This document shows, piece after piece, positions 1-64,000 of a stretch of DNA of 64,000 nucleotides. Each line of letters opens with the position of its first letter. Position 1 is the stretch's first letter. Under the pieces are notes generated by a model, which was not told where the DNA came from, did no database searches, and saw nothing but the letters and a program-made list of their open reading frames with translations. Position numbers and translations under genes: made by a program. Source of the stretch: Magnolia sinica (Eukaryota; Streptophyta; Magnoliopsida; Magnoliales; Magnoliaceae); the NCBI RefSeq assembly GCF_029962835.1, contig NC_080574.1, positions 21,364,001 to 21,428,000 of the forward strand. Direction: 5' to 3'.

Positions 1-138
1 ACCAATCCCATCGGGTCTATATGTGTTACAAGCACGACCCCTTCTCTAGCTTTTACATTTTCATGTCTCACACTTGTAAAAATAAAACAACGAGTCATTA
101 TGTTTACTTCGAATTCATGGTGGGTACTTACAAACGGA

Positions 139-596: not shown

Positions 597-599
597 AAA

Positions 600-1340: not shown

Positions 1341-1344
1341 TTTA

Positions 1345-3640: not shown

Positions 3641-3981
3641 AGCAAGTAATGAAAAATGGTCTAATGCTGTCACTTCATCTTCAGATGAGTATGGTCATAT
3701 TTTATGTGGATCGTGTTCAGGTACAGTGTATCATTTTGGTTCTTACATCACATTATCCCATCTCTCCCTTGTATCTCGTATTCTCCCAACAAACCCTTTC
3801 TCTTAGGGCCTGTTTATTTTTTCAATGCGCTGGTAAATGCCTTTTCCCTGAGCATTTATTACTTGCTCAGGTAAATGCAGTAAAGTGGCGGAAGCCATCA
3901 TTTGGATTTCACGTATTTAAAAATTTTCTAAAAAGGAGAGAAATGGCAATTCCCGTGTTTGCTGAGGCAAGGAAAATGAGT

Positions 3982-4185
3982 GGGAACGGATTGGCTACTC
4001 CGCCCTGACACCAGCCATTTCGCGGCTGGTCGGTTCTCTGTGGGGCCCACCATGATGTATGTGTGTCATCCATGCCGTCCATCTATTTATATATATTATT
4101 ATATGATATGAGAAAAAAATGCAATCCTATCTCAATCTCAAGTGGACCACATTACAGGAAACGTGTGCTTACGTGTAGATGGGCA
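3982..4185. mobile_element. MITE family A, one terminus only
   Basis: Starts GGGAACGGATTGGCTACTCC, followed by the inner part of the TIR with a small palindrome (CCAGCC...GGCTGG), and the CCCACCATGATGTATGTGT core. Similarity fades after the 'caagtggacc' block, so the rest is lost or replaced. It lies inside the left part of the Harbinger element. Confidence 0.6.
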
Positions 4186-4189
4186 GGGT

Positions 4190-13894: not shown

Positions 13895-14350
13895 CTGACT
13901 ATAGGGCCCACCTTGTTGTATGCATTGTATATCTACGCAGTCAATCTATTTTTCCAGTTTATTTTAGGATATGGTCCCAAAAATAAAGCAGATATAAGTT
14001 TCAGATGGACCGCATCACAAGAAACAGTGGTCATTGATCATTAAAACCCTTTCGTGAGCCACTAAAGTTTCTGATCTAAGTTGATATTTGTTTTTACCTT
14101 TCATCTAGGTCTTCTTGACCTTATTAATAGGTTGGATGGTCAAAAAACATTACGATAGACCTTAGGATGTTTTAACGGTGAGTATACAATGACCACTGTT
14201 TCCTATGGTATATTCCACATGAAACTTGTATCTGCTTCGTACCATTCCTTAAAATAACCCGTAAAAACTGATTTATAGGGTGGATCTATAACGCATACAT
14301 CGAGATGGGCCCAACTGTCAGGGTGCAGCCCACATAACTGGTTCCAGGGT
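13895..14350. mobile_element. MITE family A, old full-length copy
   Basis: Both ends are present but diverged: GGGCCCACCTTGTTGTATGC on the left and CGCATACATCGAGATGGGCCC on the right, with the usual internal order (caagaaacagtgg, gatctaagttgatat, ggatggtcaaaaaacatt, ggtgagtatacaatgacc). Confidence 0.6.
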
Positions 14351-14397
14351 CTCACCAAATTGGTGCTCGGACATAATACATCAACGTGGCACAGGTA

Positions 14398-14690
14398 GCT
14401 TAGGTTCCTGGAAAGGGACTGGCTACTCCCCCTGTTAGATGTCCAATAACCATTACAGTAGGCCCTAGGAGGTTTTTAACGGTGGACATTCAATCACTAC
14501 TGTTTTCCCTCAGTGTGGTCTACCTGAGATTTAGTTCTACCTCATTTTTAGAATCAAGCCTTAAAATTATCTTTTAAGATGGATGGACGGCGTGGATAGA
14601 CACATACATCATGGTGGGGTCCACATAGCACCGACCATTAACCACCTGGCTGGTGGGGGCGTCACTAGCCAAACCGCGTCTTAGGTTCCT
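14398..14690. mobile_element. MITE family A, internally deleted copy
   Basis: The left terminus GGACTGGCTACTCCCCCTG runs directly into the second half of the element (ccattacagtaggccctag...), then the right TIR (ACATACATCATGGTGGGGTC, GCACCGACC) and a final CACTAGCC-type end. The 5' half is deleted, which shows where the outer TIR segment lies. Confidence 0.65.
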
Positions 14691-44300: not shown

Positions 44301-47300
44301 GAATACATCAAACGTCATGATTTCAACCTTTAAATCTGGATTATCTTTGATGAGTCTCAACTTGTATGATGGGTAGAAAATAAATAAAAAATGTTAAATT
44401 GGATTATTTCGGTCATTTGAAATTTGGCTCTTTTGTTTGAAAAATGAGCTGTCAGTATAAGCTTTATGTAATTAAAGGGTTGCGATATTCCATATGAAAT
44501 TTTCTTCAGGCATCCCTCGCTCAGCAGGCCCTATCGTATAAACAGTTTTTGTCATTGAATAAAATATAAATTTCGATGAATAAAAACCATGATGCATCAT
44601 ATTGCAATACATGGTAAACCTCTCATTTCACCTGCATATCATTAGTTTGTTTTATTTTATATTGTTTACTTAAATGCCATTGACGAAAGCTTGAGCAAAC
44701 TGCCAAGGTGAGGAATGCTCATAGCTCACATTCTAGCTCCATGCATCTCCCTCCTAATGGTACCACCGGAAATCAATGGTGATTAGGTGGGCCACACGTT
44801 GATGGGGTAGATGAGTTTTGACTTTCGCCATCGAAGTTAGGTTATAGAGTAGTGTGGTGAGATACCATCGGAGACTGTCCATGTAGTTGACCCGATTACG
44901 ATATATGGTTAATATTTCAAAAACGTGTATTAAACATTGAATACATCAAATGTCATGATTTTAACCTTTGAATCTGGATTATCTTTGATGAGTCTTAACT
45001 TGTATGATGGGTAGAAAATAAATAAAAAATGTTAAATTGGATTATTTCAGTCATTTGAAATTTGACTCTTTTGTTTGAAAAATGAGCTGTCAGTATAAGC
45101 TTTGTGTAATTAAAGGGTTGCGATATTTCATTTGAAAATTTCTTCAGGCATCCCTCACTCAGCAGGCCCTATCGTATAAACAGTTTTTGTCATTGAATAA
45201 AATATAAATTTCGATGAATAAAAACCATGATGCATCATATTGCAATACATGGTAAACCTCTCATTTCACCTGCATATCGTTAGTTTGTTTTATTTTATAT
45301 TGTCTACTTAAATGCCATTGACGAAAGCTTGAACAAACTGCCAAGGTGAGGAATGCTCATATCTCACATCCTAGTTCCATGCAGCTCCCTCCTAATGGTA
45401 CCACCGGAAATCATTGGTGATTAGGTGGGCCACACATTGATGGGGTACATGAGTTTTGACTTTCGCCATCGAAGTTAGGTTATAGAGTAGTGTGGTGAGA
45501 TACCATCGGAGACTGTCCATGTAGTCGACCTGATTACGATATATGGTTAATATTTCAAAAACGTGTATTAAACATTGAATACATCAAACGTCATGATTTC
45601 AACCTTTGAATCTGGATTATCTTTGATGAGTCTCAACTTGTATGATGGGTAGAAAATAAATAAAAAAATGTTAAATTGGATTATTTCAATCATTTGAAAT
45701 TTGGCTCTTTTGTTTGAAAATTGAGGTGCCAGTATAAGTTTTGTGTAATTAAAGGGTTGCGATATTCAATTTGAAAATTTCTTCAGAAATCCCTCGCTCA
45801 GCAAGCCCTATCGTGTAAACAGTTTTTGTCATTGAATAAAATATAAATTTCGATGAATAAAAACTATGATGCATCATATTGCAATGCATAGTAAACCTCT
45901 CATTTCACCTGCATAGCATTAGTTTGTTTTATTTTATATTGTCTACTTAAATGTCATTAATAAAAGCTTGAGCAAACTGCCAAGGTGAGGAATGCTCATA
46001 GCTCAAGTCCTAGTTCCATGTAGCTCCCTCCTAATGGTACCACCGGAAATCAGTGGTGATTAGGTGGGCCACACGTTGATGGGGTACATGAGTTTTGACT
46101 TTCGCTGGTGAGATACCATCGGAGACTGTCCATGTAGTCGACCTAATTACGATATATGGTTAATATTTCAAAAGCCTGTATTAAACCCCTCCAACCATTC
46201 CTCATCATGTTTGGTTGAATACATCAAACGTCATGATTTTAACCTTTGAATCTGAATTATCTTTGATGAGTCTCAACTTGTATGATGGGTAGAAAATAAA
46301 TAAAATATTTTAAATTGGATTATTTCAACCATTTGAAATTTGGCTTTTTTGTTTGAAAAATGAGCTGTCATTATAAACTGTGTAATTAAAGGGTCAGAAT
46401 ATTCAATTTGAAAATTTCTTTGGGCATCCCTCGTTCTATAGGCTCTATCATGTAAATAATTTTCGTCATTGAATAAAATATAAAATTTGATGAATAAAAA
46501 TCATGATGCATCATATTGCAATGCATTGAGATGTGTGCATAAACCTCTAATTTCATTTGTGTATCATTAACTAGTTTTATTTTATATTGCCTACTTGAAT
46601 GCCATTGACAAATGCTTAAGCAAACTGCCAAGGCAAGGAATGCTCCTAGCTCACATCGTAGTTCTATGCTGCTTCCTTCTAATGGTACCACTGGAAATCA
46701 ATGGTGATTAGAACTTGATTCGGAGGGCCACATGCTGATGGGGTGCATGAGTCACAGTGTGTTTGACTTCCACTATCGAAATCAAGTTATAAAGTAGTGT
46801 GGTGAGATACCATCGAAGATTGGCCATGTAGTCAGCCTCATTACGATGGTTAATATTTCAAAAGCATGTATTAAACCACTCCAACCATCCCTCATGATGT
46901 TTGGTTGAATACACTAAAAGTCATGATTTTAACCTTTGAATATGGATTGTCTTTGATGAGTCTCAACTCATACGATGGATAGAAAACAAATAAAATATTT
47001 TAAATTGGATTATTTCAACCATTTGAAATTTGGATCTTTTATTTGAAAAATGAATTGTCACTATAAACTTTGTGTAATTAAAGGGTCGAAATATTCAATT
47101 TGAAAATTTCTTCGGGCTTCCCTTGTTCTACAGGCTCTATCATATAAACAATTTTTGTCATCGAATAAAATATAAAATTTGATGAATAAAAATCATGATG
47201 CATCATATTGCAATACATTGAGATGTGTGTGTAAACCTCTCATTTCAATTGTGTATCATTAGCTAGTTTTATTTTCTACTGTCTACTTGAATGCCATTGA

Positions 47301-48120
47301 CGAAAACTCGAGCAAACTGCAAATGAGAGGAATGCTAATAGCTCACGTCCTAGTTCCATGCAGCTCCTTCCTAATGGTACCGCAAGAAACCAATGATAAT
47401 TGATTGGGTACATGAGTCATGGTGTGTTTGACTTTCGTTGTTGAAGTCTATTTATAATTCAGTGTGGTGAGATACCATCAGAGACGGGCTATGTAATCGG
47501 TCTCATTATGGATGGTTAATATTTCAAAGTTCTGTGTATTAGACCACTCCAACCGTTCCTCATCATATTTGCTTGAATACATCCACCTTCATCATTTTAG
47601 CCTGTGAATCTACATTGTCTTTGATGAGTCTCGGCTTGTATGATGGATAGAAAACAAATAGAATATTTTAAATTGGATTATTTCAGCCATTTATAGTTTA
47701 GCCCTTTTGTTTGAAAAATGAGCAATTACTATTAATTGTGTGATTGAAGGGCTGTTATATATATTCAATTTGAAATTATTATTTTTCTAGGAATCTCTCG
47801 TCCAAAGGAGCTTATTATATAAACAATTATTATCATTGAGAAAAATATAATTTTTGATAAATAAAAATCATAATGCATCATATTGCAGTACATCAGGATG
47901 TATTCAAGTAAACCACTCGTTTCATTTGTGTTATTAACTAGTGTTATTTTCTACCTGTCTACCTTAATACCACTAGAAACAGCTTGAGTGCAAATTGCCA
48001 AGGCGAAGAATGCTCATAGCTCACATCCTAAGTCCATGCAGCTCTCCTATCGGTATCCATGGAAACCAGTACTAGGACTGTTGATTTTGTAGGCTACAAG
48101 TTAATGGGCTACATGTGAAA
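38370..48120. repeat. Satellite array, about 15 tandem units of about 639 bp
   Basis: Following the marker GGTACCACCGGAAATCA, units begin at 39007, 39646, 40287, 40925, 41577, 42205, 42843, 43482, 44121, 44759, 45397, 46036, 46684 and 47376 (the last diverged), with a partial unit on the left and a decayed one near 48.05 kb. Most spacings are 638-641 bp. Inner units are nearly identical, while the left partial unit and the last three to four on the right are much more diverged, as expected if homogenisation acts mainly inside the array. Each unit contains GTGGGCCACACGTTGATGGG and GTATAAACAGTTTTTGTCAT. No open frame is conserved between units, so it is not a gene family. AT-rich. Confidence 0.95.
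39646..45397. repeat. Higher-order repeat: three satellite units per period (about 1.9 kb)
   Basis: Units at 39646, 41577, 43482 and 45397 are of one type (CAGCTCC before the marker, AAATCATTGG after it). The two units that follow each of the first three are of another type (CACCTCC or CATCTCC, AAATCAATGG). The pattern B-A-A therefore repeats three times, with spacings of 1931, 1905 and 1915 bp. Three of the four B units also share TTGA(G/A)GTG(T/C)CAG and CTTCAGAAATCCC where A units have ATGAGCTGTCAG and CTTCAGGCATCCC. Confidence 0.8.
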
Positions 48121-48244
48121 ATCACAGTGATTGGCAAAAATCTCAACAGTCTTAGTGAGCTTTGCTGGTTGAATGTGGACTGTTCCTCTTGTTGCCCTTT
48201 TAGACCACTGATAAGATGGATTCAATCGATGCATTATTAGTGTA

Positions 48245-48485
48245 ACGAGAGGTCGTTCTACCTGGGTCCTTACTCATGCCTCAATGGTAGACTCTCAAGA
48301 GTTTCAACACTAGGTCATGGGTTACAATATCCACTGTGGTGAAATTCCACTGTGGTATGAGTGTGTGTTTTAAAAATAAAATTAAAAATAAATAAATAAA
48401 TGATGGTAGTTGAATATGGTGAAATTCTATTGTGGTATGAGTGTGTATAAAAATTAAAATTAAAATTAAATAAATAAATGGTGGT
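48245..48485 (+). mobile_element. SINE-like sequence with duplicated tail
   Basis: A tRNA-like A box (CATGCCTCAATGGTAGA) and a weak B box (TGGGTTACAATATCC), then 'gtggtgaaattccactgtgg', 'tatgagtgtgtg' and an AAAT-rich tail. The last about 80 bp (gaaattc..., tatgagtgtgt, AAAT tail) occur twice in tandem, at about 48341 and 48421. Confidence 0.5.
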
Positions 48486-48489
48486 GGTT

Positions 48490-49140
48490 CTACCAGTTCC
48501 CATTTTCAGATATAGTAAGATGATGAATTGGTCTGCGCAAGGATGGATGGTTTTTGTTTTAAAAACAAAACCCATGAGATTATCTTATATCCCTTACCTT
48601 CTCCACAGTTAGAGCATTGCACATTTGACTGTTAACAGCTTTTTTTTTTCATCCTTATTCTAGCATTACACATCAGATTGATAGTCACACATTAGATAGA
48701 TAGATTTGTTTAGTGGATGTATTTTTGAAGACATAAACAATCCATACGCTAATGGCATGGGTCACTCTCATCAAATAAAAAAACTAAATGTTCTACCACA
48801 AGAAAGATCTTAAGGATTTTTTAGGCACTTACGCATAGAAGGCCCGATAAAGTCCTTGGTTGTGTGGTCTAAGATAAGGAGCTTCATTTCTCATTCTTAT
48901 TCACTACGGCTGAAGAGGTCCTGAATTGAAATATACAAAAAATGCTGACCCACAACTATAAGAAATGTTCACTAAATTATTACAGCAGACAGGCTTTTTC
49001 CATGTGTGTGTGTCATCTTCTCTCTGGAAACGGTGTCATGAGAGAGGACTGATTTGCATATTATCACTTTGCGATGCCTAATGTAGAGACAGACTCCACT
49101 ATTTTAAGTCAGGTGGTGAAAAAGCTCTATGCCCCTACTT
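48490..49140. other. Spacer without recognised gene
   Basis: No coding or element signal that I can defend. Confidence 0.4.
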
Positions 49141-49144
49141 TAGG

Positions 49145-50108
49145 TGATATGGAATTGCACTTGGTCCCATGCAAATTCCATCTCGATTGGATCAATGAAG
49201 GTATTGTATAGTAGATACTATAGGAAATTTGATGGATTCTAAAATTAATTATATATGTGAACCCCACATTGATGCATGTGTTTTATCCACACCTTCCATC
49301 CATATGCGCCATTTACATGTGACATTTAAATTCATGTGTCCAGGTGACTCCAGTTGTGAAAACTAATCTATTGATTATAATTTCATTAGAGGTGTACACT
49401 AGTCGAGCTTGGCACAACTCGACTTGGCTCGGCCACTAGCCGACCCCATCTTGAACTCGGCTTGGCTCAGTCCTCGAGCTTGACTGGCCAGCTCGGTTCG
49501 GTTCAGTCAGCAACTCGGGGCAATTCGAGCCGAGTTCGCCAATGCAGCATTTTCACAAACACATGAACTGCACCTTCAAAATCTCATTGTATGTAAAATG
49601 GCAACAGTAGTTTTACAGGTATTTAATCAAACGCCTTGTAAGCAACATCAAAATCAGGAAAAAGGTATTTGTTTCATATACATACCTTCCTTGTCACCAG
49701 CTGATACTTCGTTGAGTCATTTCGTCAAACACTTGGTGAGCAACATCAATATCAAAGTAAATGAGTCACCAAACTGGTTCGATCCTAGTTGAGTGGAGCT
49801 CGGCCAAGCTTGAACTTGGTTCAAAAATTTTTTGAGCTAAAAAAATCAGCTTGACTCGACTCGAACTCAGTTTCAAACCAAGTCGAATCGAGCTTTTTCG
49901 AGTTGAGTCGAGCAAGCTAACTGAGCTAAATTGGTTCGTATACCGCCCTAAATTTCATGGTCTATTAAACACAAGTTTCACTTAATACTGTAATTTTTTC
50001 AAGAGAAGAATTTGATCCTAAACATTGGAATGGATGGTCAACATACTATCACATTTCCAGATATGCAATTATTGTGCAATAATAATAGTAATTCTATATC
50101 ATTTAATC
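49145..50108. mobile_element. MITE family B copy, split by a hAT-type insertion
   Basis: Left part: 'atggaattgcacttggtccc' and 'ccccacattgatgcatgtg'. Right part after the insertion: 'catggtctattaaacacaag', 'atcctaaacattggaatgga' and 'gcaattattgtgcaat'. The order matches the uninterrupted copy at 36138-36706. Confidence 0.65.
49387..49950. mobile_element. Non-autonomous hAT-type element with perfect 8-bp target duplication
   Basis: Termini TAGAGGTGTACAC and GTATACCGCCCTA are imperfect inverted repeats of the hAT style, flanked on both sides by AATTTCAT (49379-49386 and 49951-49958). The arms carry CGAGCT / GACTCGAGC-like phrases in both orientations. There is no transposase. The insertion split a family B MITE. 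Confidence 0.85.
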
Positions 50109-50279
50109 TCTTGTTCCAAGAGTTTAAATATGAGGCAGATACGAAGCTCAAGTGGGAATTGAATGAGTTCAGAGCTGAAGACTTCCCGGAGGTCAACCAC
50201 AGTGTACATTTATTAACCTGTTCATATAAAGTCATATAAACATGAGTGAAGGGAGGACACAGATATTAACTTATCCAAG

Positions 50280-50500
50280 AATGGTAGGCATTCAATCCCC
50301 ACTCTTTCTTATGGTGTGGTCCACTTGAGCTTTGGATCTGCTTCAATTTTGAGCTCATGCTATAGACTGAACTGGCAAAATGGATGGACGGTGTGGATAA
50401 AACCATACATTGTGGTGGTGCCCATACAGCTTTTCCACTACGAATTGAGCAGTGGAGGGGTCGCTACTCACTATTCACTACCCAGTCCGATTTTGTAGAC
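50280..50500. mobile_element. MITE family A, half copy
   Basis: Second-half blocks 'tatggtgtggtccacttgag', 'aaaatggatggacggtgtgg', 'aaccatacattgtggtgg' and a diverged outer end (gtcgctactcactattcac). Confidence 0.55.
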
Positions 50501-50504
50501 AGGT

Positions 50505-51050
50505 AGATCTGCCTCGTTCCATTCTCCCAGCGGGCGCCTGACCAATCATTGTACGGTCGAGCAGTTTTCTCCGGACTAGTCCTCAACGTTACATGTGGTT
50601 CACTGGGGCCAATATAGAATCATATGAAATCCACTCCGTCCATCAGGCGTGCTTTCTTATTTGCACCGTATATCACAAAAACAAGCCTGATCTAGTCCTT
50701 GGATCCGGATTCATGTTTCAATGATCCAAACTGTTTATACGGTGGGCCTCGTCGTGGATGGGTATAAGGGAAAATAATCGCAGTATCTGAATATTCCAAC
50801 CCTTTTATCATGTAACTCTTTTCTGAGCCACTGATAGGATCTTTCAATCTTAGACGCTCATCTGGGTCGCCCATCCACCCTGACAGAGATCATATAAACC
50901 GTTTGGATCATCGAAAAAATGATCCCAAGTAATAATAATAATAATAATAATAATTGTTGATATATATTGATTTTTAATATATTTTAAAACAAAAAATATG
51001 ATATTATAAAAGGTTTGCAAAATACATTTTTTCTTGTGTCATGGGAATAG
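50505..51050. other. Spacer with MITE-like scraps
   Basis: Phrases such as 'gtttatacggtgggcctcgt' hint at old repeats. No gene seen. Confidence 0.4.
50931..50954. repeat. (AAT)n microsatellite
   Basis: Eight AAT units. Confidence 0.95.
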
Positions 51051-51053
51051 TAT

Positions 51054-52090
51054 GTTGGAAAAAGAGGAGGATTTTGAGTATAAATGTGGAGAGTGGAGTA
51101 TTATAATATTTACCCACATGGTCCAAGGAGTATGGAGCTTGCGTGTTCCAGTGCGTAAGCGCTCGGGATCGGGCACTGGTATGGGCACGGTCTTGGTCTC
51201 AGTCTCGGGCACGCGCTCGGTGCGAGAGCGTGAGCATATGAGGTAGTGTGGCTGTAGAGGCGCTAGTGGCACACTTTGCACGTCTGCATTGTGTCGCAGA
51301 TGATCGCTCCTTCGCGAACCGGCATGAGACGAGTGCGAATCGTAATGCGACAGAGAGCTAAGGCGGATGGCTGGCTGGAAGAACTAAGGACTAAATGAGG
51401 TCCCTTGGCTTATATAGAGTCTGGAAATATAGCTGTTGTAGGAAGGTGTAACTCCTCATGCAATTGATCGCTGACCATGTAGAAATTGCTGCATGTGGCT
51501 AGCCTAACAGCTAGAAACGGCTAGTCAGTGTCTTACAACGGTCAATATGCAATAGCTGTTACAATGCATAACGGTCAGAAACTACCAATAACAGCTAGTT
51601 TCTCCCAACAACCAGAAACGGTCAATTGGATTAATTTCCATGGATCATAACTCCCAGCTACCATTACCTATATAAACAGGGCCTAGATGGGTTTCTAAAC
51701 ACCACAACACACTCTAACAGACCTATTCAAACCACATCTTCTCCTAGAGAACCAGAAGTTTCAGTAAAATAACAAGGTTCATCTGAACCATTGCCTGAAG
51801 AACAGACCAACGGTGTAGTATAGAATGGTTCATCTGAATCATTAGCTGAAGAACTGACCAATGCAGTGGTCTAATTCACGTTTTTTCTACTCATTTTCTA
51901 TTTAGGATTTTTCTTTTTATTTCTGCAAGAAATTGTGTAACAGAGTTCCATTAGTGGGTCTTCGTGTTTGCTGAACGCAGATCCACACCAGGCTCGTTGT
52001 ATCCTAGGAGCAATTTGCCTGTAACCTTTCAGCACACTCAAATTACTTGAGTAGGGGCAAATAATGTTTTAAGGACAACGTTCTACATGT
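51054..52090 (+). mobile_element. Probable 5' LTR of a Ty1/copia element
   Basis: Begins TGTTGGAAA, the usual start of copia LTRs, and lies just upstream of a copia gag. A TATA box (CTATATAAACAGGGCC) near 51670 is followed by a region with twin phrases (ggttcatctgaa.catt.gctgaagaac) and ends in sequence like 'tcgttgtatcctaggagcaa'. The right edge is approximate because no second LTR is available for comparison and I could not identify a primer-binding site. Confidence 0.55.
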
Positions 52091-52196
52091 GCTTTAGCTT
52101 ATCATGATTTCAGATTATTTTGGTTTCCTGCTTTCATATTTTACAGAAAATATCATTTCTGTATAATTTCTTAACAATCTTAAAGCGTTATTTTTT

Positions 52197-54937
52197 ATGG
52201 AAACCGATAGTATATTATCTATCAAGTTAATGAATCAGGACTTGATTTGTCATGATCGGTTCGATGGAACCAATTTTACCAGATGACAAGACAAACTTAA
52301 GTTTCTTCTGACGGTGCTGAAGATATACTACATCTTAGATCCAACTCTGTAACCACTACCTGCAGCAACTGAAGCAGGCACACCTGAACAGATCGCTGCC
52401 AGCACCAAACAAGCTGAATATGAACTCCTGTATCGTGGACACATCCTGATTGCGCTCTCCGACCGTCTATACGATTTGTACACACAAACATCATCAGCAA
52501 AAGAAATCTGGACCACTCTGGAGTTCAAATACAAAGCTAAAGAATAAGGTACCAACAAGTTTCTGATTGTCAGGTACTTTGACTATAATATGGTAGATAA
52601 CAAACCGTTGTTAGCTCAAATTCAAGAACTGCAGCTTATAGCAAACAAAATCAAAGCCATTAAGATTGATCTTCCTGAATTATTCCAAGTCGGGGCTATT
52701 ATCGCTAAGTTGCCCCCGATGTGGAAAGATTATAGAAAGAAGTTGCTGCATAAGACTGAGGACTAAACACTAGAACAAATCAAGAAACATCTCAGAATTG
52801 AGGAAGAATCTCGGAACCGCGATAAAAAGAATGACAACGAGAATTTCTTGTCCAAAGTATATGCAATAGAAAATACAAATAACTTGAATCCCGAGAAGGA
52901 CGATTCCCTGAAACCCAATAAAGGAAAATTCAAGAAAAATACCTAGAAGAAGAACAGAAAGTTCAAAGGCTCATGTCATGTCTATGAGAAAAACGGTCAC
53001 TATACTCGAGTTTGCCGATATCGCAAATCTAAAAAAGAAGCAAGTGTAGTAGAATGCGATATTGTGGCAATGATCACTGAGGTGTACACCATCCAAGAAA
53101 AGGTTCCCAGTTGGTGGTACGATACTGCCGATACCATACATGTCTGTTATGAAGATTAGCCTTCAAAACCTATGAGGAATTGACTGATGGTCAAGAAGTC
53201 CAAATGGGTAATGAAGTCTGATCGAAAGTTGTCGGCAAAGGAATCGTCAAACTGATATTCACCTCTGGGAAGAAAGTGATTCTGATAAACATACTGCATG
53301 TCCCAGACATGAGGAGAAACCTAGTTTCAGGGGATCTTCCGGGCAAACCAGGAATAAGGGTGATGTACAGGTCATGAAAACTGATTCTATCGAAGAATGA
53401 GAATTTTGTCAGAAAGGGATATGCTTGTAACGATATGTTCAAGTTTTCTCTGAATGAATGTATCACTTCTGCGTATATGGTTGAATCTGTTGGACTATGG
53501 CTAGCCTATATAGGATATAGTACCTTGAAGTTCATGGATAAGAATGGTTTAATCTCATACACAGAAAATGAAACCGATAAATGTGAAGTGTATATACGAT
53601 CCAAAATTACAAAGAAACTTTTTTCAAGTATCAAGAGATCATCTCAAGTGTTGGATCTTATGGACAGTGATATTTGTGAGTAAAACGACATTCTTACTTA
53701 TGGAGGTAAAATGTACTTTATAACCTTTATTGATGATTGCTCTAGATATGTGTATGTGTACCTATTAAAAAGAAAAGATGAAGTATTGAACATGTTTAAG
53801 GTATATAAAGCAGAAGTAAAAAATCAACTAAACAAGAAGATAAAGATTCTCCGTAGTGATAGAGGAAAAGAATACTTCTCTAATGAATTCGATAACTTCT
53901 GTAAAGAACATGGACTAATACATCAATGTACTGCGCTATACACACCTCAACAAAATGGAATAATAGAAAGAAAGAACAGAATATTAGTAGAGATGGTCAA
54001 CTCAATGCTAATACGAGTAAAGTTGCCACTCAGTCTATGCGGTGAAGCATTCCTTGCAGCGTGTCATATATTAAACAGAATTCCGTCTAAGAAAAATAAA
54101 ATGTCGCTATATGAAATATGGAAAGGTTAAAAACCTAACCTAGGATATCTTAAAGTGTGGGGATGTCTTGCATATTGCAGAACTCCTGATCCAAAAAGAA
54201 CTAAGTTAGGACCCAGAGCCATTAAGTGCGCTTTCGTAGGGTATGCACAAAATAGTAAAACTTATAAACTTCTAGATCTAGAGTCTAATACCATAATAGA
54301 ATTAAGAGATGTTGAGTTATTTGAGAACTCACTATCCTTAGAGTCAAATGATAATGAAGTCCAAACTCCTGATAGAGAACCAGATGGTACAGCTCCACAA
54401 GTAGTGGAAGCTCCTATTGAACCTCGTAGGAGTCAAAGGACAAGAATATAGAAAAATCTAGACGGTGATTATATAGACTCTTAGTGCATCGTTTTTCCAT
54501 CTTGTAGATGGAGATAGAAAAAATATTATAAGAAAAATACTTATAGTAATGACTATAAAAGATAATCCTAAAACATATAAAAAGGTTGTATCCTCTAGAG
54601 ACCCAGCTTCTTGGAAATAAGCTATTAATGATGAAATGAAATCTATAATGTCAAATTAAATATAGGAACTAGTAAACTTACCTTTAGGTTCTAGACCTAT
54701 AGGTTGCAAGTGGGTACTTAGGAAGAAGTATCACACTGATGGGACTATCCAAACTTTTAAAGCTCGATTAGTAGCTAAGGGTTTTAGACAAAAAGAATGG
54801 ATAGATTATTTTGACACATATTCTCCTATAGTTAGGATAACATCCATTAGAATATTATTTGTGTTAGCTTCCATACATCATCTTCATATCCACCAAATGG
54901 ATGTAAAGACCGTATTTCTGAATGGTGACTTTAATGA
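52197..54937 (+). pseudogene. Ty1/copia gag-pol, decayed and truncated in the reverse transcriptase
   Basis: From ATG (METDSILS) the gag can be followed through in-frame stops (for example FTR*QDK and KAKE*GT) to a damaged zinc knuckle (CHVYEKNGHYTRVC, where the second cysteine is lost) and a damaged protease site (WWYDTADTIHVC). The integrase zinc region is also degraded (LWLAYIGYSTLKFM). The integrase core is open at 53711-54130, with D in TFIDDCSRYV, D in LRSDRGKEYF and E in QQNGIIERKNR. The C-terminal part continues at 54155-54451 (KVWGCLAYCRTPDPKRTKLG). The reverse transcriptase starts (PIGCKWVLRKK, KARLVAKGF, IHQMDVKTVFLNGD) and stops at 54937, where a CACTA terminus begins. No catalytic RT aspartate box, RNase H or 3' LTR follows in the window. 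Confidence 0.9.
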
Positions 54938-55275
54938 CACTACGTCAAAATCGCTGATTTACGACGGACTAAATCCGTCATAAAACCAAATAAACGACGA
55001 ATTTCGTCTGTCGCTGTTTACTGGGTCATTTTTTCTTTTTTGACGGAAAAATCTGTCGTTTAATATGCGACGAATAAGGTCCGTCGTAGATTACCAACGA
55101 ATAAAATCCGTCGCAAAAAATAAAAAAAATTCGTCGCTGAAATTCGAAAAAACACTCGTCGTCATTTAAAATATTTGCGACGGATAAAGTCCGTCACTAA
55201 TATGAAGAGAACGACGGCCCAAATTCGTCGTTCAATTTCTTGTTTAGAAATTAACGACGAATAAAGTCCGTTGCT
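54938..55275 (+). mobile_element. CACTA (En/Spm) transposon terminus
   Basis: Begins CACTACGTCAAAATCGC and continues with eight to ten subterminal palindromes of the type ACGACGGA..TCCGTCG (for example TACGACGGACTAAATCCGTC and GCGACGGATAAAGTCCGTCA). These are the hallmark of CACTA ends, where the element's own DNA-binding protein attaches. The junction lies inside copia RT coding sequence, so CACTA inserted into copia. The three bases before it (TGA) would be the target duplication. I found no opposite end (…GTAGTG) in the remaining 9 kb, so the element either runs past the window or is truncated. Confidence 0.85.
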
Positions 55276-56256
55276 AAAATATGTGTGAATAAAATAAAAT
55301 TATCAGATTTTTTTATTTTTTTTATTTGGTTTAATCTTACACCTGATAGTCATTCAAAAAATAATTCACACAATTGTTTAATAAGAATCCTATTCACAAA
55401 ATTGCTAGAGAATGTCCCAAGTGGGGTAACCCAAACAATAGTTCCCATAGGATGTGAAACATGGAATTGCAAAGAGAGAGAGGTTGTCGCTGTCTCACCT
55501 CTACTACGGTCAAATTTCTACATATTTCATTGCAATATAGCAGACTTGTTCCCATTCCTGCAAACTCTGGAAAATCAACAACAAAATTAGTAAAACACAT
55601 TCTTTCAAAGGATTCTGAATACACAAAAATAGAAGTAAATGGATAACAATAACTTTAGCAATAACAAAATTATATTTAGGGTAAAAGACCTAAAAATTAC
55701 CTATAACAAGAAGATATAAGTGAAGCAGCAGAGTATGCTGTTGTGAATGCAAGTATTAATAACAAAAGTACAAATTTGCTGTTATGAATCTTATGATATT
55801 TTAGTGCAGGAAAGGAAGTATAATGTTATGAATGCAAGTTATGCATTCACCATTATTTTTTCTGACTTATGGCCCTTGATGGAGTGGAATAGAGGGACAT
55901 GATTCATGTAGATGATTTCAACTAGTTAGGTAAGCCTTAGATGATGATGATGCCATAGTTTGGCATACTTTATGTTATTTCCTATAGGAGTATAGTCATT
56001 TTGTCACAGTCAGAATGAAACTCAAAAATGGGTAAACTATTCTAGAGTAAAGAGCACTCGATGCCTGTTATTTCATCTTATAAATGTTTAACAGTTGCAC
56101 CTCGTATCCTAGGAGTTCCCTGAAGTCTCTAGAAGTTTTAATCTAACCAATCTACTAACACAGGTGCTTATATTTGACAAGCATGCAAATACATAAAGCT
56201 CAAATGAAGGATTACAAGAACTTTCATCATTTCCTGTGCAAAAAGTGGCGCCATAC
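55276..56256. other. CACTA interior or spacer; unidentified possible exon
   Basis: On the minus strand around 55400-55600, one frame reads SHPMGTIVWVTPLGTFSSNF, with plausible splice signals nearby. I do not recognise it. The rest is AT-rich. Confidence 0.3.
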
Positions 56257-56370
56257 CTCTTTCAAAACTATGGAATTTTTGAGCCCTGGAAAGAGTTTCT
56301 TTTCCAGTCTGCCTATGATCTCATCTGCAATTAGCTCCTATTGTGCTTCATAGTCTTTTGTTGGGAGACC
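56257..56370 (-). pseudogene. Single exon of a carotenoid isomerase (CRTISO)-type gene, with a stop
   Basis: 38 codons between a good acceptor (GGAATAG|GGTCTC) and donor (AAAGAG|GTATGG): GLPTKDYEAQ, a TAG codon (56338-56340), then ELIADEIIGRLEKKLFPGLK and NSIVLKE. This corresponds to the WEGLS-KEYEAKKE...RLEKKLFPGL...FKEVG segment of plant prolycopene isomerases. I see no other exon of that gene nearby, so this is a fragment rather than a gene. It lies 1.3 kb inside the CACTA terminus. Confidence 0.7.
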
Positions 56371-58310
56371 CTATTCCAATGAGTATGCAAATAAAATAAA
56401 TGCATTTGTTGGTTGAAAGAAATCATCCTACTTGTTTATTTTACACTAACAGAACACGATGAAAATGACTATAAAGACAGTTCCATCAGCAAACCTTGCA
56501 GTTTAGTGAATCTGTTTTAAAAAACTAATGGACTTTTATGAAGAATGTATGGTCATGATTAAAGAACTAATGGACCATTCCAATATAATTTGGTGAAGAT
56601 TGAGTGTTTGAAGAATGATAGAGCCAAATTTAAGGTACCGCAGCAAAGAACTCAGCTTCTACAACAAAGAGAAGACTCGTCATTAGTCATGGAATCCATT
56701 TCCTCTTAAAAGCTAACATGTTGGGCAGTTTCCATTGGCCATCAAGAAGTTCCATTGTAGTTTTTCCCCAGCTTTACTTCTCTTTATCAATCTAGGAAGG
56801 CCAACCACGGTTCCATTGGAACCCCCACATTGACCATGTGACAAGAACACAAGTTTAACAAGATGATTTGACGAATTGGTTGGAGAATCAGCTATGAGTT
56901 GATCCAATAGATGTAAACAACTGTATAGTTGTTTCTTAGTGAATCAACAACAATTTATCTCAACAATGAACTATAAAAAAAAAAAAAAACTAACAACGGT
57001 GATGCATTATGCCAAACAAAAACAGGAATTCGAAATCTAGAATAAGAAATTGATTGAATATGACCATTTACTGTCAAATATCACAGAATCAACCAAATAC
57101 AACAAAAGAAGGAAAAAAAAAACCAAATTCGTAAATCACTTAAAGTCTCTACATATCCAGAAACCAATCCATTCAGATCTTAACCTATCATCAGCATAAT
57201 CATATCCCCAATGCATTTGGAACATCAACTCATACAAACTAAATGCATTAATCACCCATGATTTAATCAGACAAAATAATTAATCAAAAACTCAAACATC
57301 AAATCTTAAAAGTTCAAACCACACTAATAAATGGCCCATCAACATTGCCCTAATCACAATAACAATCATGAAGTAAAACTTCCAAAGTGGCGTCCATTGC
57401 GCAACTCAATCCTACTGATTGTTGGCCATCAAATTGACATTTGAAAGGAAAATGGTCCTTGGGCAAAATCCACCAATTATTGTATGATTAGTATGATGTT
57501 TAGGCCACGCAAAACCACAACAGGACTTATGATTAGTATGATGTTTAGGCCACGCCACTTGTACAGTGGTTGGATGCACTAGTATGTACCATAGTCAGCT
57601 TGAGGAAGGTATTTTTCCTAACAAATGAACATCATCAATTACATTGCTAAGTTCAAACCTAACAGAAAGGGCAACAAAAAAAATACAATAAAATAAAATA
57701 AAAAAATAAAAAATAAAACATCAAGCATTAAAATAAGACATTAATTGAAACCTCAAATGCTGTTGTCTAATCATTGAATCAGTCCAATGTTTGAAGCGAA
57801 ATGTTGTATTAGTTCCATCGTTGATTTTGTTGTCTAATCAAGAAACAAAACACTATTAGTTCCAACATTATATTGTAAAGTTCAGCATATAATAGAAGCA
57901 GCATGTCTTTGGGGGTTATTTGTAAAGTTCAGCAGTATCTAAGGGAGTGGGTGCCTTAATTGGCTTGGTTGTTTTTTCTTTCCTTTTTCCTTTGCTTGTA
58001 TATTCTCTGTTCTCTCATTTTATTTCCTTTTCTTTCTGCCTTTGTGGCCTAATAAATCAGTACCATTCAAAAAAAGATAACATTATATGGTATGCACTAC
58101 AAATGCAGTATACAATAGATGAAGCAGTATCCACAAAACTCTCAACTTCAGCAAAATGTGCCAACTCTGCTTTGAAATTTCTGCATGTTTTCATTTGTCA
58201 TTACTTTCCTCAACGATGACCATGATCCAGAACTAGCTTTTTGTTTATCAAGAATGTGATTTACATTGTGTAGTTAATAGGTGTGATGACTGAGCGTGCA
58301 CAACTGTGAT
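56371..58310. other. Region between captured fragments
   Basis: A minus-strand frame at 56713-56907 (HGQCGGSNGTVVGLPRLIKR) looks protein-like but I cannot place it. A 25-bp phrase (gattagtatgatgtttagg...) occurs twice, 46 bp apart, near 57486 and 57532. At 57960-58070 a T/C-rich stretch followed by 'cctttgtggcctaataaatc' resembles the 3' end of a plant LINE. Confidence 0.35.
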
Positions 58311-58320
58311 GGATTTTGCA

Positions 58321-58382
58321 GTCATCTGAGAAACTGCAACTTTTGTCGTTCCCCATGGACTTCCAATCTTTAATGGAGAGTG
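58321..58382 (+). pseudogene. Possible orphan exon, unidentified
   Basis: Between TTTTGCAG and GTAAGC the plus strand reads SSEKLQLLSFPMDFQSLMES. The open frame and good splice sites suggest an exon, but I do not recognise the protein and see no companions. It may be chance. Confidence 0.25.
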
Positions 58383-58989
58383 GTAAGCATCCCATTTCCT
58401 AGACTATCTATATTATCTCGTGGTTCTTATTTCTTACATCAGGAGCATATTGGTCATAATTCTATCACTGGTAGCTGTCCAAATGTCGTGTTCTGTTTTA
58501 GAAAATTCAAGTAGAAAATTCGTTTTCTTCTGATTTAAGAATGGGCTAATTTGGATCATCCTTGTAAGTCATGTGTTGATATTGTTTCGTATAATTGTAT
58601 CAACTCATTACATTGACAAAGTAGGATAGTTTAGGACATCGAGAATGGTTCTGAGAACTGTTATGTCATCTCTTGTGCTCTATATATTCATCTTGGACCA
58701 TTATGGATATGGTTTCAGGCTCCATTTAACATGGTATTAAAACCATGCATTGGTAGACAATAATCTTCAGGCTTCTTCACCCCAAAGGCTGAAGTTCAAG
58801 ATTCATCCATTGGAAAGAGGGAAGAGGAATGGAGGGAAGTCTTAGGATTTCTATTTGTCTTCATTAGAGAGGGATGGAGAGCAGGTTTTTAAGGTATCGA
58901 TTTACCCTAGTTAGAGATGTGATCAATTTACCATGTTGTGCATCTTTCATCAAACCCATTGAGTGCAACTCACCAGGATGAAATGAAGA

Positions 58990-59240
58990 TACAAACATTC
59001 AGCCTGATATAAAGCTTAGGTGGGCCATACCATGTGAACCTAGTAAAATTTTGAAGCGATAAAGATATAAATGATTCAAGATTAATTTAAGGTTCCGAGA
59101 ACTTACATCCACCTCACTCTTACTGCCAAGTAGTCCTGATGAAAGCTCACCTGATGGATATGAAGATGGGCAAGGGCAACACACCACAATCACATCTATT
59201 AAACAATCTTGACCATTCAATTAGAGGGTTGTCATAGATA
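58990..59240. repeat. MITE-like fragment
   Basis: Phrases 'taaagcttaggtgggccat', 'gaagcgataaagatataaat' and 'aaacaatcttgaccattcaa' are in the style of the local MITEs. No ends defined. Confidence 0.35.
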
Positions 59241-59539
59241 AAGAAATTTGGGTCTCACAAAACATAAGCTGCATAACAACAATATGTATCGTATTTTTCA
59301 TGCAAACAACAACTACAATAATACAATATACATCTTTCCAAACACCATCCAACTACTCAGAGATTCTATATATTCTCACAAAAATGGTACCTGTTTCTCT
59401 TCTATTCAACTAATTTTTGTCTCTTGAGACATGGCAAAGCTTAATATTAGTCTTTGCTTATCCAGCAAAAAGATCATTTGCTAAATTCAACAATAATAGC
59501 TGAGTCATGTTGTCAAGACATCCAATATATAAGACTTAC

Positions 59540-59705
59540 CAAATCCTCATCATAGACACCAACAACTGTGAAAGGTACCTGCACTGGATTCAACACAGGT
59601 CCCAAGATATTGAAGACTGTCTTCACTTTGAGCAGTTTCCTCACAAGACCAACAATTTTCATCGATGGGTGGCGTATTTGGGAGACATCATAAAACCAAT
59701 TCCTA
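59540..59705 (-). pseudogene. Single exon of anthranilate phosphoribosyltransferase, frameshifted
   Basis: Acceptor AAAGACAG|TAGGAATTGG and donor GATTTG|GTAAGTC frame an exon encoding GIGFMMSPKY, then, after a 2-bp shift, HPSMKIVGLVRKLLKVKTVF and NILGPVLNPVQVPFTVVGVY-DEDL. This is the tryptophan-pathway enzyme that joins anthranilate to PRPP (plastid PAT1/TrpD type); the NILGP-LNP motif is diagnostic. A normal exon would lack the two extra bases after KY. Neighbouring exons, including the GTGGDG-containing one, are not found within several kb on either side, so it is an isolated fragment. Confidence 0.8.
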
Positions 59706-61730
59706 CTGTCTTTATACATTTATTTACCACCTAACTCCAACAAATATGAAGGCAGTTATTAGTTCATTGCAGATATTCACAATGCCTAACAAATGGAAGA
59801 AAAGGAAAAGCTCAACATGTGTCATTATCAAGCTGTTTGCACAAGTTTTATATATGAAACAAGGCCTACATTTGTTCAAAGATAACAACGTATGAGTACA
59901 GTTTGTAGAAAATCACAACTGTTGCCTGTGGTGTGGCCCACCTAAGTCAAGAAGGTTTCACTGGGCAGGCATCCACTCTTATCTGTTGCTTGTGGTGTGG
60001 CCCACATGAAACATTCGAAGTGAGTGCAACGGTAACATTCTGACTAAGGGTAGCAAGCATCTACTATAGCAAACTGATTCTCCTGCCATTTTAACAAATC
60101 CAGTTAAGTCAATTTCGAATTACAACATAGCAGAAACAACATTTAGAAGAAACATATAAATAAATAAAATAAATAAAATAAATAAATAAACTGTGATTGA
60201 AACAGGATCTAGAATAGACTGAAATAAAATTTGAAATAAATGAGGAACTTTGAAAATGATGCAAGGTGCTAGGGACAATTATATACCAAAGTGCAGTGAA
60301 TACGGATTTACCATGGATTAAGCAGTCACTTTAATAACAAGAACAGATAGAAACAAGTAGTCTCTTTACTATGAATTATGCCTATTACGGGAGTGTAAAG
60401 CAATTTAAATTCTAACATGACTTACCAGGAATAAAATTTGAGTAAAAATGGGTAACATCATATAACACTACACACCAACTTTCAAATGGACTATGAAGCC
60501 ACCTTGTTTTTTATTTGTCATCTAACCCTGTTAGCAGGTGAAACTGAGCAGAATTAGTAGGCACATAAAAACTGAAAATATTCCAAATTTTAAGTGGGCC
60601 CAACAAGGGAATGTATAGGATGTAAGCTTGATGCTCACTGATACCAGTACATCTTAAATGGGTTGTAAGCCAAATATCCTAGTAATTGAAAAAAAAAAAA
60701 AAAAAAAAACACTTAACCATCCAGCACTTGCCAAATATCTGATGATCAGTGGTCCAATCTGCCTGACTTCTGGCATATGGCCCATCCACTGGGCAAAAAC
60801 AAAATCAATTACACTAGGTGAAAATGTAGTCCTCAACCAGAGCTTGCGTCCTGTGAGAAAACACCAAAATGAAATTGATAAACTAAAGTTTGAGAACAAA
60901 CATTGGTATCAAATAAGAGCGCACAAAAAGGAACCCACCAAGCATTTCAAAGAGCACCCTCAAGCAATTAATGCATACATGAATTCAAGCGTATCATCAC
61001 CAACATGGTTGGTCAAAAATAAGTACGCTAGATTCAAACTGACCAATTACACCACAAATATCAAAAGTGCAAGTCTTGAATGTGCAAGCAGTCAATGTGC
61101 TGTTGAATAATATCCGAAGTATTGAGCATGGCTATGAAAGAAAAATTCATTTCATCCTCCCACATTGCCAAATCTCGACATTGTTACAATCAGGGGTTTT
61201 GGAATAAGAAAAGAGAGAAGAAAAGAGAAAGCCATGACAGATGGAATGGATTTTGGAATAAAAACAGGGATTTTGAGAGAAACTCACCCACGGCAGGAGA
61301 GATGCCTGAAATCCTTCAGAGATTTGGAGCTCACCCACCGGCGGAAGAAGAAAATGAGAAACCAGGTTGCAGAGGGCGTCGTTCGAAAGAGTGATCCGTA
61401 AAGGCAGGGGCGTCGTTCGAAAGAAGAAATCCCTATTATGAAATGAGATGTTACTTTCAAATCCAAAACTTGTGTGTTTTCCACAATTTAACACATCAAC
61501 TACATTAATAGCCATACATTTAAGGGACCATTTATTGAATTATTAAGATAGTTTTATATGGAAAAAAGTATAAATATTAACATTAACAACCAGACTCATT
61601 ATTTAGATGGTCTAGATAAATATATATCATTTCCACTATTATTATAAATGAGTCACCACTAATTTACTTCAAACACAAAACTCACAAACTGAATTGTCCA
61701 ATATATAACGTCACTTGCTCTATGGATCTG
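59706..61730. other. Non-coding interior with simple repeats; GC-richer block at 61.2-61.44 kb
   Basis: An A-run lies near 60690-60709. The block at 61250-61440 reads on the minus strand like a 5' leader (cttcttccgccggtgggtg, then CCGTGGGTGAGTTT as a possible donor), and a phrase 'gggcgtcgttcgaaag' occurs twice there (about 61375 and 61409). It could be the first exon of a captured or transposon gene, but I cannot name it. Confidence 0.35.
60158..60191. repeat. (AAAT)n microsatellite
   Basis: Imperfect AAAT/AAATA run. Confidence 0.85.
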
Positions 61731-61732
61731 GT

Positions 61733-62175
61733 AGGGCTCAATGGGCCCCACCAAGATGTATATGTTTTAATCCCTCCGTCTATCCATTTATAAATATCAT
61801 TTTATGATAGATCCCAAAAACTGAGATCTATATAAATCTCAATTGGATCACACCACGGGGAAAACGGAAAGTGATTCCCACCGTTGAAGCTATCCTAAGG
61901 CCCATCATAATGTTTATTTGAAATCCAACCTGTTCAAAAGTTAAAAAAGACATGAAATAAGGGAAAATACAAATATCAGCTTGATCTAAAACTTTTATGG
62001 CCTTTAGAAAATTTTAATGGTGGGCGTCACTGTCCCACTGTTTTCTGTGCTGGGGTCCACTAGAGCTTTGGATTTAACTGGTTCTTTAGATATTGCCCTA
62101 AAATGATCTCTCCAAATGGATGGAAGGTACGGATACAAAATATACATCATGGTGGGGCCCACGGAACTTGCTGAT
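61733..62175. mobile_element. MITE family A, near full-length copy
   Basis: Inverted ends GGGCCCCACCAAGATGTATA and ATACATCATGGTGGGGCCCA, with the full internal order (aatctcaattggatcacacc, cagcttgatctaaaac, ggtgggcgtcactg, ggatggaaggtacgg). Confidence 0.75.
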
Positions 62176-62192
62176 GTCACTTCAGTAGCTAA

Positions 62193-62712
62193 TCTCGCTA
62201 CTCCCCTGACACCAGCCCGTGGTCGGTACTCTGTGGGCCCCACCATGATGTATGTATTTCATCCATTACGTTCATCCACTTTTTAAGATCAGTTTAAGCA
62301 TTTATTCCAAAAATGAGAGGTATATAAATCTCAGGTGGACCACACCACATGAAAACAATAGTAATTGGATATCCATCATTAAAATCCTCCTAAGGCCCAC
62401 TGTACTGTTTATATGACATCCAATCTGTTTATTAGGTCATACAGGCCTAGATGAAGGGGAAAAATAAAAATCATCTCGATCTAAAACTTTTATAGCCTCC
62501 AAAATGTTTTTAATGGTTGACGCTCATTCAACACTGTTCCTGTAATGTGGTCTATTTCAGATTGGGATATACCTCATTTTTGGTCTCATTTCGTAATATG
62601 ATCTTTAAAAATAGATGTACCGCATAGATGAAACACATACATCATGGTGGGGCTCATAGAGCACCGACCACCCGCCATTGGCCGGTGTTAGGGGGAGTAG
62701 CCATTCTGTTCC
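62193..62712. mobile_element. MITE family A, complete copy with longest TIRs
   Basis: Left end GCTACTCCCCTGACACCAGC, right end GGCCGGTGTTAGGGGGAGTAGCC, continuing inward as long inverted repeats through the CCCACCATGATGTATGT core on both sides (about 80 bp per arm). This copy best defines the family. Confidence 0.8.
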
Positions 62713-62714
62713 CC

Positions 62715-63180
62715 TTAATTGTGTGTGGTCCATTTAATCTTTGGATTTTTTTAGATAATTCTCTAAAATTATCTCAAAAAATGGATGAATGGTGTGGGTT
62801 GATCCCAAATTTTTAGTAAATCCAAAATTTAAGTGGACCATGCCACACGAAATAGTGTGGAATAATGATTTCCACTGTTGATACTTTCCTTGGGCCCACT
62901 GTAATGTTTGTTTGTCATCCAACCTGTTCATAATATCAAAAAGATATGAATGAAGAGAAAAGACGAACATCAGCTTGATCCAAAACTTCTATGGCCTTCA
63001 AGAAATTTTCAGTGGTAGAGGTTCAATCACACTATTTCCTATGGTGTGGTCCACTTGAGCTTTGGATATGCTTCCTTTTTGTTCTTTAGACCTCAAATTA
63101 TCTGTTAACATGGATAAATGGAGTGGATAAAATAAATAAATAACGGTGGACCCCATAGAGTTTACTTTGGTACACCTATG
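62715..63180. mobile_element. MITE family A, rearranged copy
   Basis: Begins with a second-half fragment (gtgtggtccatttaatcttt to atgaatggtgtgg), then restarts in the first half (aagtggaccatgccacacg) and runs to a right end, ACGGTGGACCCCATAGAG. Either two fragments joined or one insertion into another. Confidence 0.55.
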
Positions 63181-63209
63181 TAGTGGGGAGGGGTTTCCTT
63201 AAAACATTC

Positions 63210-63515
63210 ATAATCATATATTGGGCTTGCCTTAATGTGATTCATATATCCAACCCACTCATTATGTGTGTCTCACTTGGATGAGGGGTCAGACCAAGTT
63301 TTAGCCGCATCCAAAACTCATATGGGCCCCACCAAGTGCTTTTATATTTTTTAAGATGTCTTGACATAGTTTTAGATGGAATGGCCCACCTGAGTTTCGT
63401 TTACAGATGATTTTTGAAATATCTCATAACCTAAAGGGGACACATTAAATGCATGGTGTTGATGTTCGACATGCATCATGATGGGGCCCACAAAACTTAT
63501 TAACATCAATTCGTA
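63210..63515. mobile_element. MITE family A, partial old copy
   Basis: Blocks 'tccaacccactcattatgtg', 'gcatccaaaactcatatggg' and 'gcatcatgatggggcccac'. Left end missing. Confidence 0.5.
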
Positions 63516-63519
63516 GGTT

Positions 63520-64000
63520 CTCGCAAGGTCAATAACTTGGGTCACAATTTTGACAATAATATTTAACCCATTTTATATGTCTAGTCCATTCACTTTATTT
63601 TATTGATTAATACCATCAATTTGACTAGTTACTCGCCCTAATCAGGCTAGTTGCATATGAGAAAGGTATTGGGCATACAAGATTGGTCAACAATTTGAGT
63701 GAAATTTGATTTAAATATATGAAGTTATTTACACTTCAATCGAGACTATTTTGATTGTCCAAAAATGGTAAAATGTTCAATTAGTGGATGTGCCTAATAA
63801 TTTATTAAAAAATATTTTTTTTTCACAGATAAATTATAATTTCCATTTAAAAATAACATTTTTTTTTTTCAAAATGTGTATTTTTTTACTCTTAATTTTT
63901 CTTTGAAAACTTTCAACAAAATATCATTTTTATTATAAAATATTTTAAAAAATAAATTAAAATACATATTCTGAATTTTTATTTTCAAAATATCTTAAAT
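63520..64000. other. AT-rich end of window
   Basis: No gene or element recognised. Very A/T-rich, with T-runs. Confidence 0.4.

Follow-up and report, generated by a model that had tools for sequence, protein, structure and literature searches.

The subject of this analysis is a DNA transposon of Magnolia sinica that lies in a stretch of 64,000 nucleotides from contig NC_080574.1 (hereafter the window; C2:21364001-21428000 in the 1.84-Gb assembly of 127 contigs that was searched, where all match counts are lower bounds). The element occupies positions 54938-68303 of the window numbering run on past 64000, and it is very probably a non-autonomous CACTA (En/Spm) transposon of the Pack-CACTA kind, which holds an interior of unrelated gene pieces and was later copied to several chromosomes. 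Its cargo amounts to four or more pieces for which donor-like loci exist elsewhere, namely pieces of an anthranilate phosphoribosyltransferase (AnPRT) gene, a carotenoid isomerase (CRTISO) gene, an FKBP-type gene (PNSL4), and a locus on C5. The evidence consists of both ends of the element, its target duplication, the donor-like loci, capture-specific changes shared between copies, and the presence of several copies. An earlier sequence-only reading of the window had proposed a CACTA element holding pieces of two genes on one strand, which undercounted the cargo and missed that one piece apparently has the opposite orientation.

In the CACTA superfamily, a transposase acts on the ends of the element, which moves by cut and paste and leaves 3-bp target duplications behind. 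The left terminus is formed by CACTACGTCAAAATC at 54938, the sole perfect match to this sequence on both strands of the window, and the left terminal inverted repeat CACTACGTCAAAATCGCTGATTTACGACG (54938-54966, plus strand) is paired with TACTACTCCAAAATTGCCAATTTGCGACG, given as reverse complement, on the right. The opposite terminus was found in the next 20 kb and by sister-copy alignments, 4.3 kb outside the window at 68303. The element thus continues from 54938-64000 into the adjoining stretch L009 (positions 1-4303) and measures 13,366 bp, a 3.1-kb nested insert included. Its borders read TGA/CACTAC...GTAGTA/TGA, the right one being ...CAATTTTGGAGTAGTA followed directly by TGAGGAGATACACATAGAACAACC, and the two TGA copies of the target-site duplication are located at 54935-54937 and 68304-68306. 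The sister element on C19 is likewise flanked by CCA/CCA. The C13 and C19 copies terminate in CACTACGCC.

The left end (54938-55760) consists of dense, palindromic subterminal repeats (54957-55280) and of a genome-repeated part (55301-55760) taken as CACTA family sequence. It belongs to a large family with at least 41 matches (40 of 673 candidates scored). Six subterminal motifs were counted, giving 15 matches in the bin 54001-56000 and none in the four bins of 56001-64000. Over the whole element they gather at both ends, with 11 in the first 500 bp, 1, 3, 1, and 4 in the bins towards the right end, and none between. The motifs at the right end are spread over several bins because the nested insert splits them. 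This insert (65058-68151, in L009) has TAGAGGTGGGCATT-like inverted ends and a flanking duplication matching in 7 of 8 bp (GTTGTAAA/GTCGTAAA); we take it to be hAT-like, and it is absent from the C11 and C19 sister copies. A GTAGTG near 63180 was considered as the second CACTA end and rejected, having neither subterminal repeats nor a duplication.

A copia element to the left of 54938 encodes gag, integrase, an SH3-like domain, and positions 3-92 of the 244 of RVT_2; it is broken within its reverse transcriptase, and the frame resumes at once to the right of the CACTA element. Without the element and with a single TGA, the sequence of the empty site is MDVKTVFLNGDFNEEIHIEQPEGF, and the copia reverse transcriptase stays in frame across it. 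The proposed CACTA terminus interrupting a copia element is thereby borne out by CACTACGTCAAAATC and the split reverse transcriptase, and the position of the fragments inside the CACTA element, formerly deduced from one end, is established by the terminus at 68303 with its subterminal repeats and TGA duplication. A second CACTA end to the left of the fragments, which would have spoken against capture, was sought in inverted orientation at up to 4 mismatches in 15, and none was found in 54938-64000. Since the window alone shows only one CACTA end, the fragments might be taken as pseudogene remains left in place at an old gene-rich site, with the CACTA end as a mere neighbour. The probability of such a case is negligible now that the second terminus with its target duplication and the continuing copia frame have been found and the same combination is seen at other sites.

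The AnPRT segment (59487-60005, minus strand) contains one exon with parts of both introns and matches the AnPRT gene at C19:3.04 Mb. The exon scored E=2.4e-11 with PF00591 and E=1.6e-13 with TIGR01245 when the minus-strand frames of 54938-64000 were scanned whole. In a PDB sequence search its best match reached E=5.5e-10, and all 25 sequences returned (25/25) were named anthranilate phosphoribosyltransferase. For the exon proposed earlier at 59540-59705, the identity, the broken frame, and the 3' end at 59540 all hold; the start was set by comparison with open gene exons and lies at 59730, with AG directly ahead, rather than at 59705. The exon (59540-59730, minus strand) is disabled by a 2-bp insertion that shifts its frame. 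Twelve genome matches to the exon were obtained, and the DNA around each was examined. The insertion is common to eight of them (the window, C18, C19 at 32.5 Mb, C9, C11, C16 at 6.8 Mb, C13, and C14) and absent from the other four (the C19 gene at 3.04 Mb, the C2 gene at 137.2 Mb, and two C16 pseudo-exons at 51.5 Mb). Seven of the eight insertion-bearing copies carry further element modules, whereas the C14 copy has the AnPRT region only, so its membership of the lineage rests on the 2-bp insertion itself. At the donor-like loci, C19:3.04 Mb and C2:137.21 Mb, several AnPRT exons follow one another, with stops in some frames of the C19 locus. The two C16 pseudo-exons (C16:51521501-51530500, stretch L029; this and the other L-numbered stretches below are genomic stretches compared in their own numbering) stand in tandem 5.56 kb apart, and their similarity to the CACTA copies extends over longer flanks than that of the AnPRT genes. 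A genome-wide search with the AnPRT family gave a single match at the window site and no further AnPRT exon nearby.

Apart from the element, a second AnPRT piece is repeated genome-wide. It covers profile positions 48-134 in two mostly open exons about 250 bp apart, and its sites include C1:88752000-88752900 (L033) and C12:70748371-70749103 (L034), among others. The L033 piece gave 46 matches, fragments and two genes included, most of them at 91-98% identity and the C19 gene at 93%. Its carrier was sought and not identified. Copying of AnPRT into repeated DNA thus seems to have happened on two or more occasions.

The CRTISO segment (55867-56472, minus strand) likewise holds one exon and parts of both introns, and its portion 55867-56440 aligns to L030 4601-5165 at 94.6%. 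The exon had been placed exactly right at 56257-56370 (minus strand): it comprises 38 codons with one premature stop, preserves AG before and GT after, and matches TIGR02730 with E=4.7e-5 in the whole-frame scan and 1.5e-6 for the peptide with X at the stop. A PDB search with a 28-residue piece of it gave no match. Its six genome matches are made up of five element copies (the window, C18, C11, C13, and C17) and the gene at C18:52.03 Mb, where eight TIGR02730 stretches in three frames were found, the best frame reaching E=1.4e-78. All five element copies (5/5) contain a 9-bp stretch that is absent from the C18 gene, and this change is termed an insertion by comparison with that one gene copy only.

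Full-length CRTISO and AnPRT genes continuing on either side would have argued against capture, and no further exon of either was seen nearby. An NCBIfam scan of the minus strand of 54938-64000 gave one CRTISO stretch only, and Pfam scans of 54938-64000 (both strands), 46000-54937 (plus strand), and L009:1-4310 (minus strand) yielded neither gene again. In the six frames of 54938-64000, Pfam found no family besides the PF00591 of AnPRT. Parent candidates, whose existence the earlier reading had proposed to check, are present elsewhere, on C18 for CRTISO and on C19 and C2 for AnPRT.

Directly abutting the CRTISO piece at 56472/56473 is the captured PNSL4 (FKBP-type) segment (56473-57806, minus strand), which takes in an intron together with the initial 39 nt of the exon that follows it (56473-56511). 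It matches C2:5.52-5.53 Mb (reverse complement of L035, 1700-2535 and 3936-4436), where the gene has the same intron 1.4 kb longer than in the element. The C2:5.52 Mb locus is of FKBP type (PF00254, E=8.4e-6), and its 32-residue exon peptide agrees with PNSL4, a lumenal NDH subunit, in 30 of 31 aligned residues (E=1.2e-15). The next segment (57889-58927, plus strand) is unnamed and corresponds over 1.04 kb, at 95.7% identity and with sharp ends, to C5:14.92 Mb (L037 2074-3106); beyond a gap, the similarity picks up again and extends to about 57864. An exon-like stretch within it (58322-58382) lies on the plus strand, opposite to the other cargo. At C5 this stretch is open in two frames, one reading VIGETTTLVIPHALPIFNGEW; in the window copy the VIGETTTLVIPHALPIFNGEW frame has a stop and the other frame is open. 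No match was obtained for the C5 locus with Pfam on both strands (the minus scan without the first 399 bases) or for its 21-residue peptide in the PDB. Two or three additional exon-like stretches had been noticed earlier, of which 56473-56511 proved to be the partial PNSL4 exon and 58322-58382 the C5 stretch, on the opposite strand; 61240-61440 is instead repeated sequence common to sister copies and others. Moreover, repeats of about 500 bp of the GGGCCCACCATGATGTATGT type (61741-63160) occur in sister copies and elsewhere in the window.

The exons are flanked by introns that match the introns of genes, which agrees with the view that capture occurred at the DNA level and rules out processed, retroposed gene copies. 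The named exons are broken in frame, and nothing in the sequences points to a functional protein. An AnPRT piece is linked to a CRTISO piece at four sites, the C2 window, C18, C13, and C11. The C11 copy has every module plus recognisable ends; both ends are recognisable in the window, C11, and C19 copies, and the others are partial or incompletely covered. In the middle of the C9 copy, nothing credible was found in the three minus frames. The 2-bp insertion in eight AnPRT copies and the 9-bp stretch in five CRTISO copies point to one capture of each piece, followed by spread. Over about 3.05 kb of cargo, the Kimura two-parameter (K2P) distance is 0.0285 for the window-C18 pair and 0.046-0.068 for the other nine pairs.

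Sister elements also differ in cargo. The sister on C19 keeps the AnPRT half, and its 3' half bears an ADP-glucose pyrophosphorylase (AGPase) exon, replacing the CRTISO half. This exon matches PF00483 with E=0.0021, below the Pfam cut-off, and the large subunit in the PDB with E=2.2e-10; the 501 bp around it have 11 genome matches, itself included. One deletion is common to the window, C18, and C19 copies and absent in C11, C13, and C17, as scored without C9, C16, and C14, and the deletion is derived, given that the flanks of the C16 pseudo-exons have the undeleted sequence. The window and C18 cargo is shared with C11, C13, and C17, not with C19. This conflict between deletion pattern and cargo pattern suggests that elements may exchange their 3' halves. 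In a tree of the 5' module, C19 joins the window, C18, and C9 with 55% support, and values inside the eight copies range over 29-85%, so the half-exchange rests mainly on the shared deletion; in the 3'-cargo tree the window-C18 pair has 100% support.

One of the 11 matches to the DNA around the AGPase exon, a further sister at C13 43.6 Mb, can be aligned to the C19 element first over 1.07 kb, a length limited by where the fetched sequence stops, and then over 4.9 kb, skipping the AnPRT-bearing 2.1 kb, which corresponds to 59144-61240 of the window. A nested insert would be missing in just this way, and Helitrons and Pack-MULEs often hold several gene pieces. Helitrons are marked by TC...CTRR ends, a 3' hairpin, and insertion between A and T with no target duplication. 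Both classes are also named in PMC1947982. It could therefore be proposed that the gene pieces belong to a second capturing element of either class nested in the CACTA element, which itself captured nothing. The joint on C13, however, is deletion-like, with a CATC micro-overlap only and no long inverted repeat at the segment ends, and other genomic matches run past the joint point (reaching query 281-313). In addition, the PNSL4 and CRTISO pieces are directly joined, about 107 bp separate the end of the CRTISO piece from repeated sequence regarded as belonging to the CACTA family, and one cargo piece seems to run opposite to the rest. The outer unit is bounded by terminal inverted repeats and flanked by a target duplication; no scan was aimed at Helitrons or Pack-MULEs. 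Collectively, a nested capturing element appears very improbable.

The junctions between the pieces offer clues to how the interior of the Pack-CACTA element was assembled. In C11, C13, and C17, the PNSL4 exon is 16 nt longer, and about 4 nt (AGTC) separate it from the CRTISO intron, whereas the sequence bounded by two AGTCTTT repeats was lost from the window and C18 copies. The C5 and PNSL4 pieces are separated by just under 60 nt of filler (counted by eye) that was not placed and has a repeat within it, and no CACTA terminus lies between the C5, PNSL4, and CRTISO pieces. Judging from these few decayed copies, the junctions would fit template switching in repair better than simple fusion of neighbouring insertions. 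For Pack-TIR elements, an origin by gap filling or replication fork switching is proposed in PMC8277862; these elements are animal ones, and such an origin would fit the junction filler seen here.

A different route, the tandem-insertion model of Catoni 2019, in which a pair of adjacent Pack-CACTA copies moves as a unit together with the intervening DNA, is proposed in PMC8903248 and PMC13317346. The C19 sister looks like a hybrid, with a 5' half that shares the deletion with the window and C18 and a 3' half that has AGPase. Against this model, PNSL4 and CRTISO, which come from different chromosomes, are joined in C11, C13, and C17 by about 4 nt of filler without transposon DNA, for which template switching is the better fit in the case of these two pieces. 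Tandem insertion is a serious possibility, yet an unlikely one, and both processes may have acted. In the mechanism that we favour, a transposase encoded elsewhere would recognise the ends of the element and move it by cut and paste. The interior would have been patched at the DNA level with nuclear gene pieces, introns included (AnPRT, the C5 locus, PNSL4, and CRTISO), inserted through template switching while breaks or gaps were being repaired. The composite would then have transposed to several chromosomes and decayed, and related elements may later have swapped halves.

A stronger proposal, which we consider improbable, is that this CACTA family acts as a recombining cassette system, with repeated template-switch stitching of exon-and-intron pieces from unlinked genes, exchange of entire halves among elements that differ in cargo, and a notable draw on nuclear genes for plastid proteins. 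The four named donors, AnPRT, CRTISO, PNSL4, and AGPase, encode plastid proteins. This leaning may be a detection bias because the libraries used favour proteins of bacterial descent.

Several observations weigh against the Pack-CACTA reading. At the right terminus the CACTA core is degenerate and differs by one base (TACTA), and the flanks of the C11 copy are not clean (GCG versus GGC). Scans of 54938-64000 in all six frames and of L009:1-4310 in the three minus frames gave no transposase match, for which reason the element is taken as non-autonomous, and a plus-strand scan of one related 8-kb CACTA stretch likewise found none. The terminal 363 bp have 76-87% identity to six sister copies, compared to 94-97% to four copies for the cargo of about 3 kb. 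The reverse pattern, ends more alike than cargo, is expected in section 9 of PMC8903248; the difference may stem from decay of CG-rich repeats or from an exchange of ends. The AnPRT donor is ambiguous within the exon, where the C19 gene shows 93% identity and the C16 pseudo-exons 93% and 91%, and the C16 copies match the window over longer flanks than does the C19 gene. Finally, C5 is probably a donor rather than another copy, judging from its sharp ends and the exon-like stretch open in two frames.

Other features of the window were also recorded. A tandem array at 38561-46105 has a unit of 638/639 bp and copies about 95% alike, and it was missed by the repeat finder because the longest period was 500. 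A 694-residue open frame (18765-20849, plus strand), which appears to resemble chloroplast NAD kinase 2, had no match in the PDB at E 0.001. Sequences like GGGCCCACCATGATGTATGT are also present at 142-594, 3982-4166, 13899-14637, and 50282-50432, with inverted and ~500-bp spaced copies. Rfam at gathering scores gave no match in the whole window.

The element agrees with what defines a Pack-CACTA, as host gene pieces lie between its termini with parent loci elsewhere and more than one copy has moved as a unit. Among its closest known counterparts, Tgm-Express1 is a soybean CACTA with five host gene fragments (PMC1947982). It too belongs to the CACTA superfamily and holds several unrelated gene fragments with exons, introns, and splice sites kept. 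Tgm-Express1 measures 5.7 kb and has inserted into an intron of a flower-colour gene, with chimeric transcripts shown, whereas the Magnolia element interrupts a broken copia element and has several copies. The gene sets differ as well, that of Tgm-Express1 being an unknown protein, CDC2, FPK, malate dehydrogenase, and cysteine synthase. In Chenopodium, PMC8978399 also describes host gene pieces inside CACTA-like elements, but there the captured pieces lie upstream of transposase coding regions, which those elements possess as well. At about 10-13 kb, the elements of this family are longer than the 0.3-0.5 kb PIF and Mariner examples in section 9 of PMC8903248. They differ from the Pack-CACTA and Pack-TYPE elements of that source in the fusion of pieces from two unlinked genes with no intervening transposon DNA, in halves apparently exchanged between cargo types, and in ends less alike than cargo. 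Among the open-licence literature matches listed, none appears to describe this gene set with CACTA, Pack-CACTA in Magnolia or magnoliids, or CACTA in Liriodendron.

Gene capture with introns inside CACTA ends is a known pattern, and this family is a new example of it. How DNA transposons acquire host genes has been the subject of debate between fusion of neighbouring insertions and template switching in repair. Here, one assembly offers candidate donors, capture-specific markers, copies of differing divergence, and sisters with swapped cargo, which together make the capture routes distinguishable by reading junctions.

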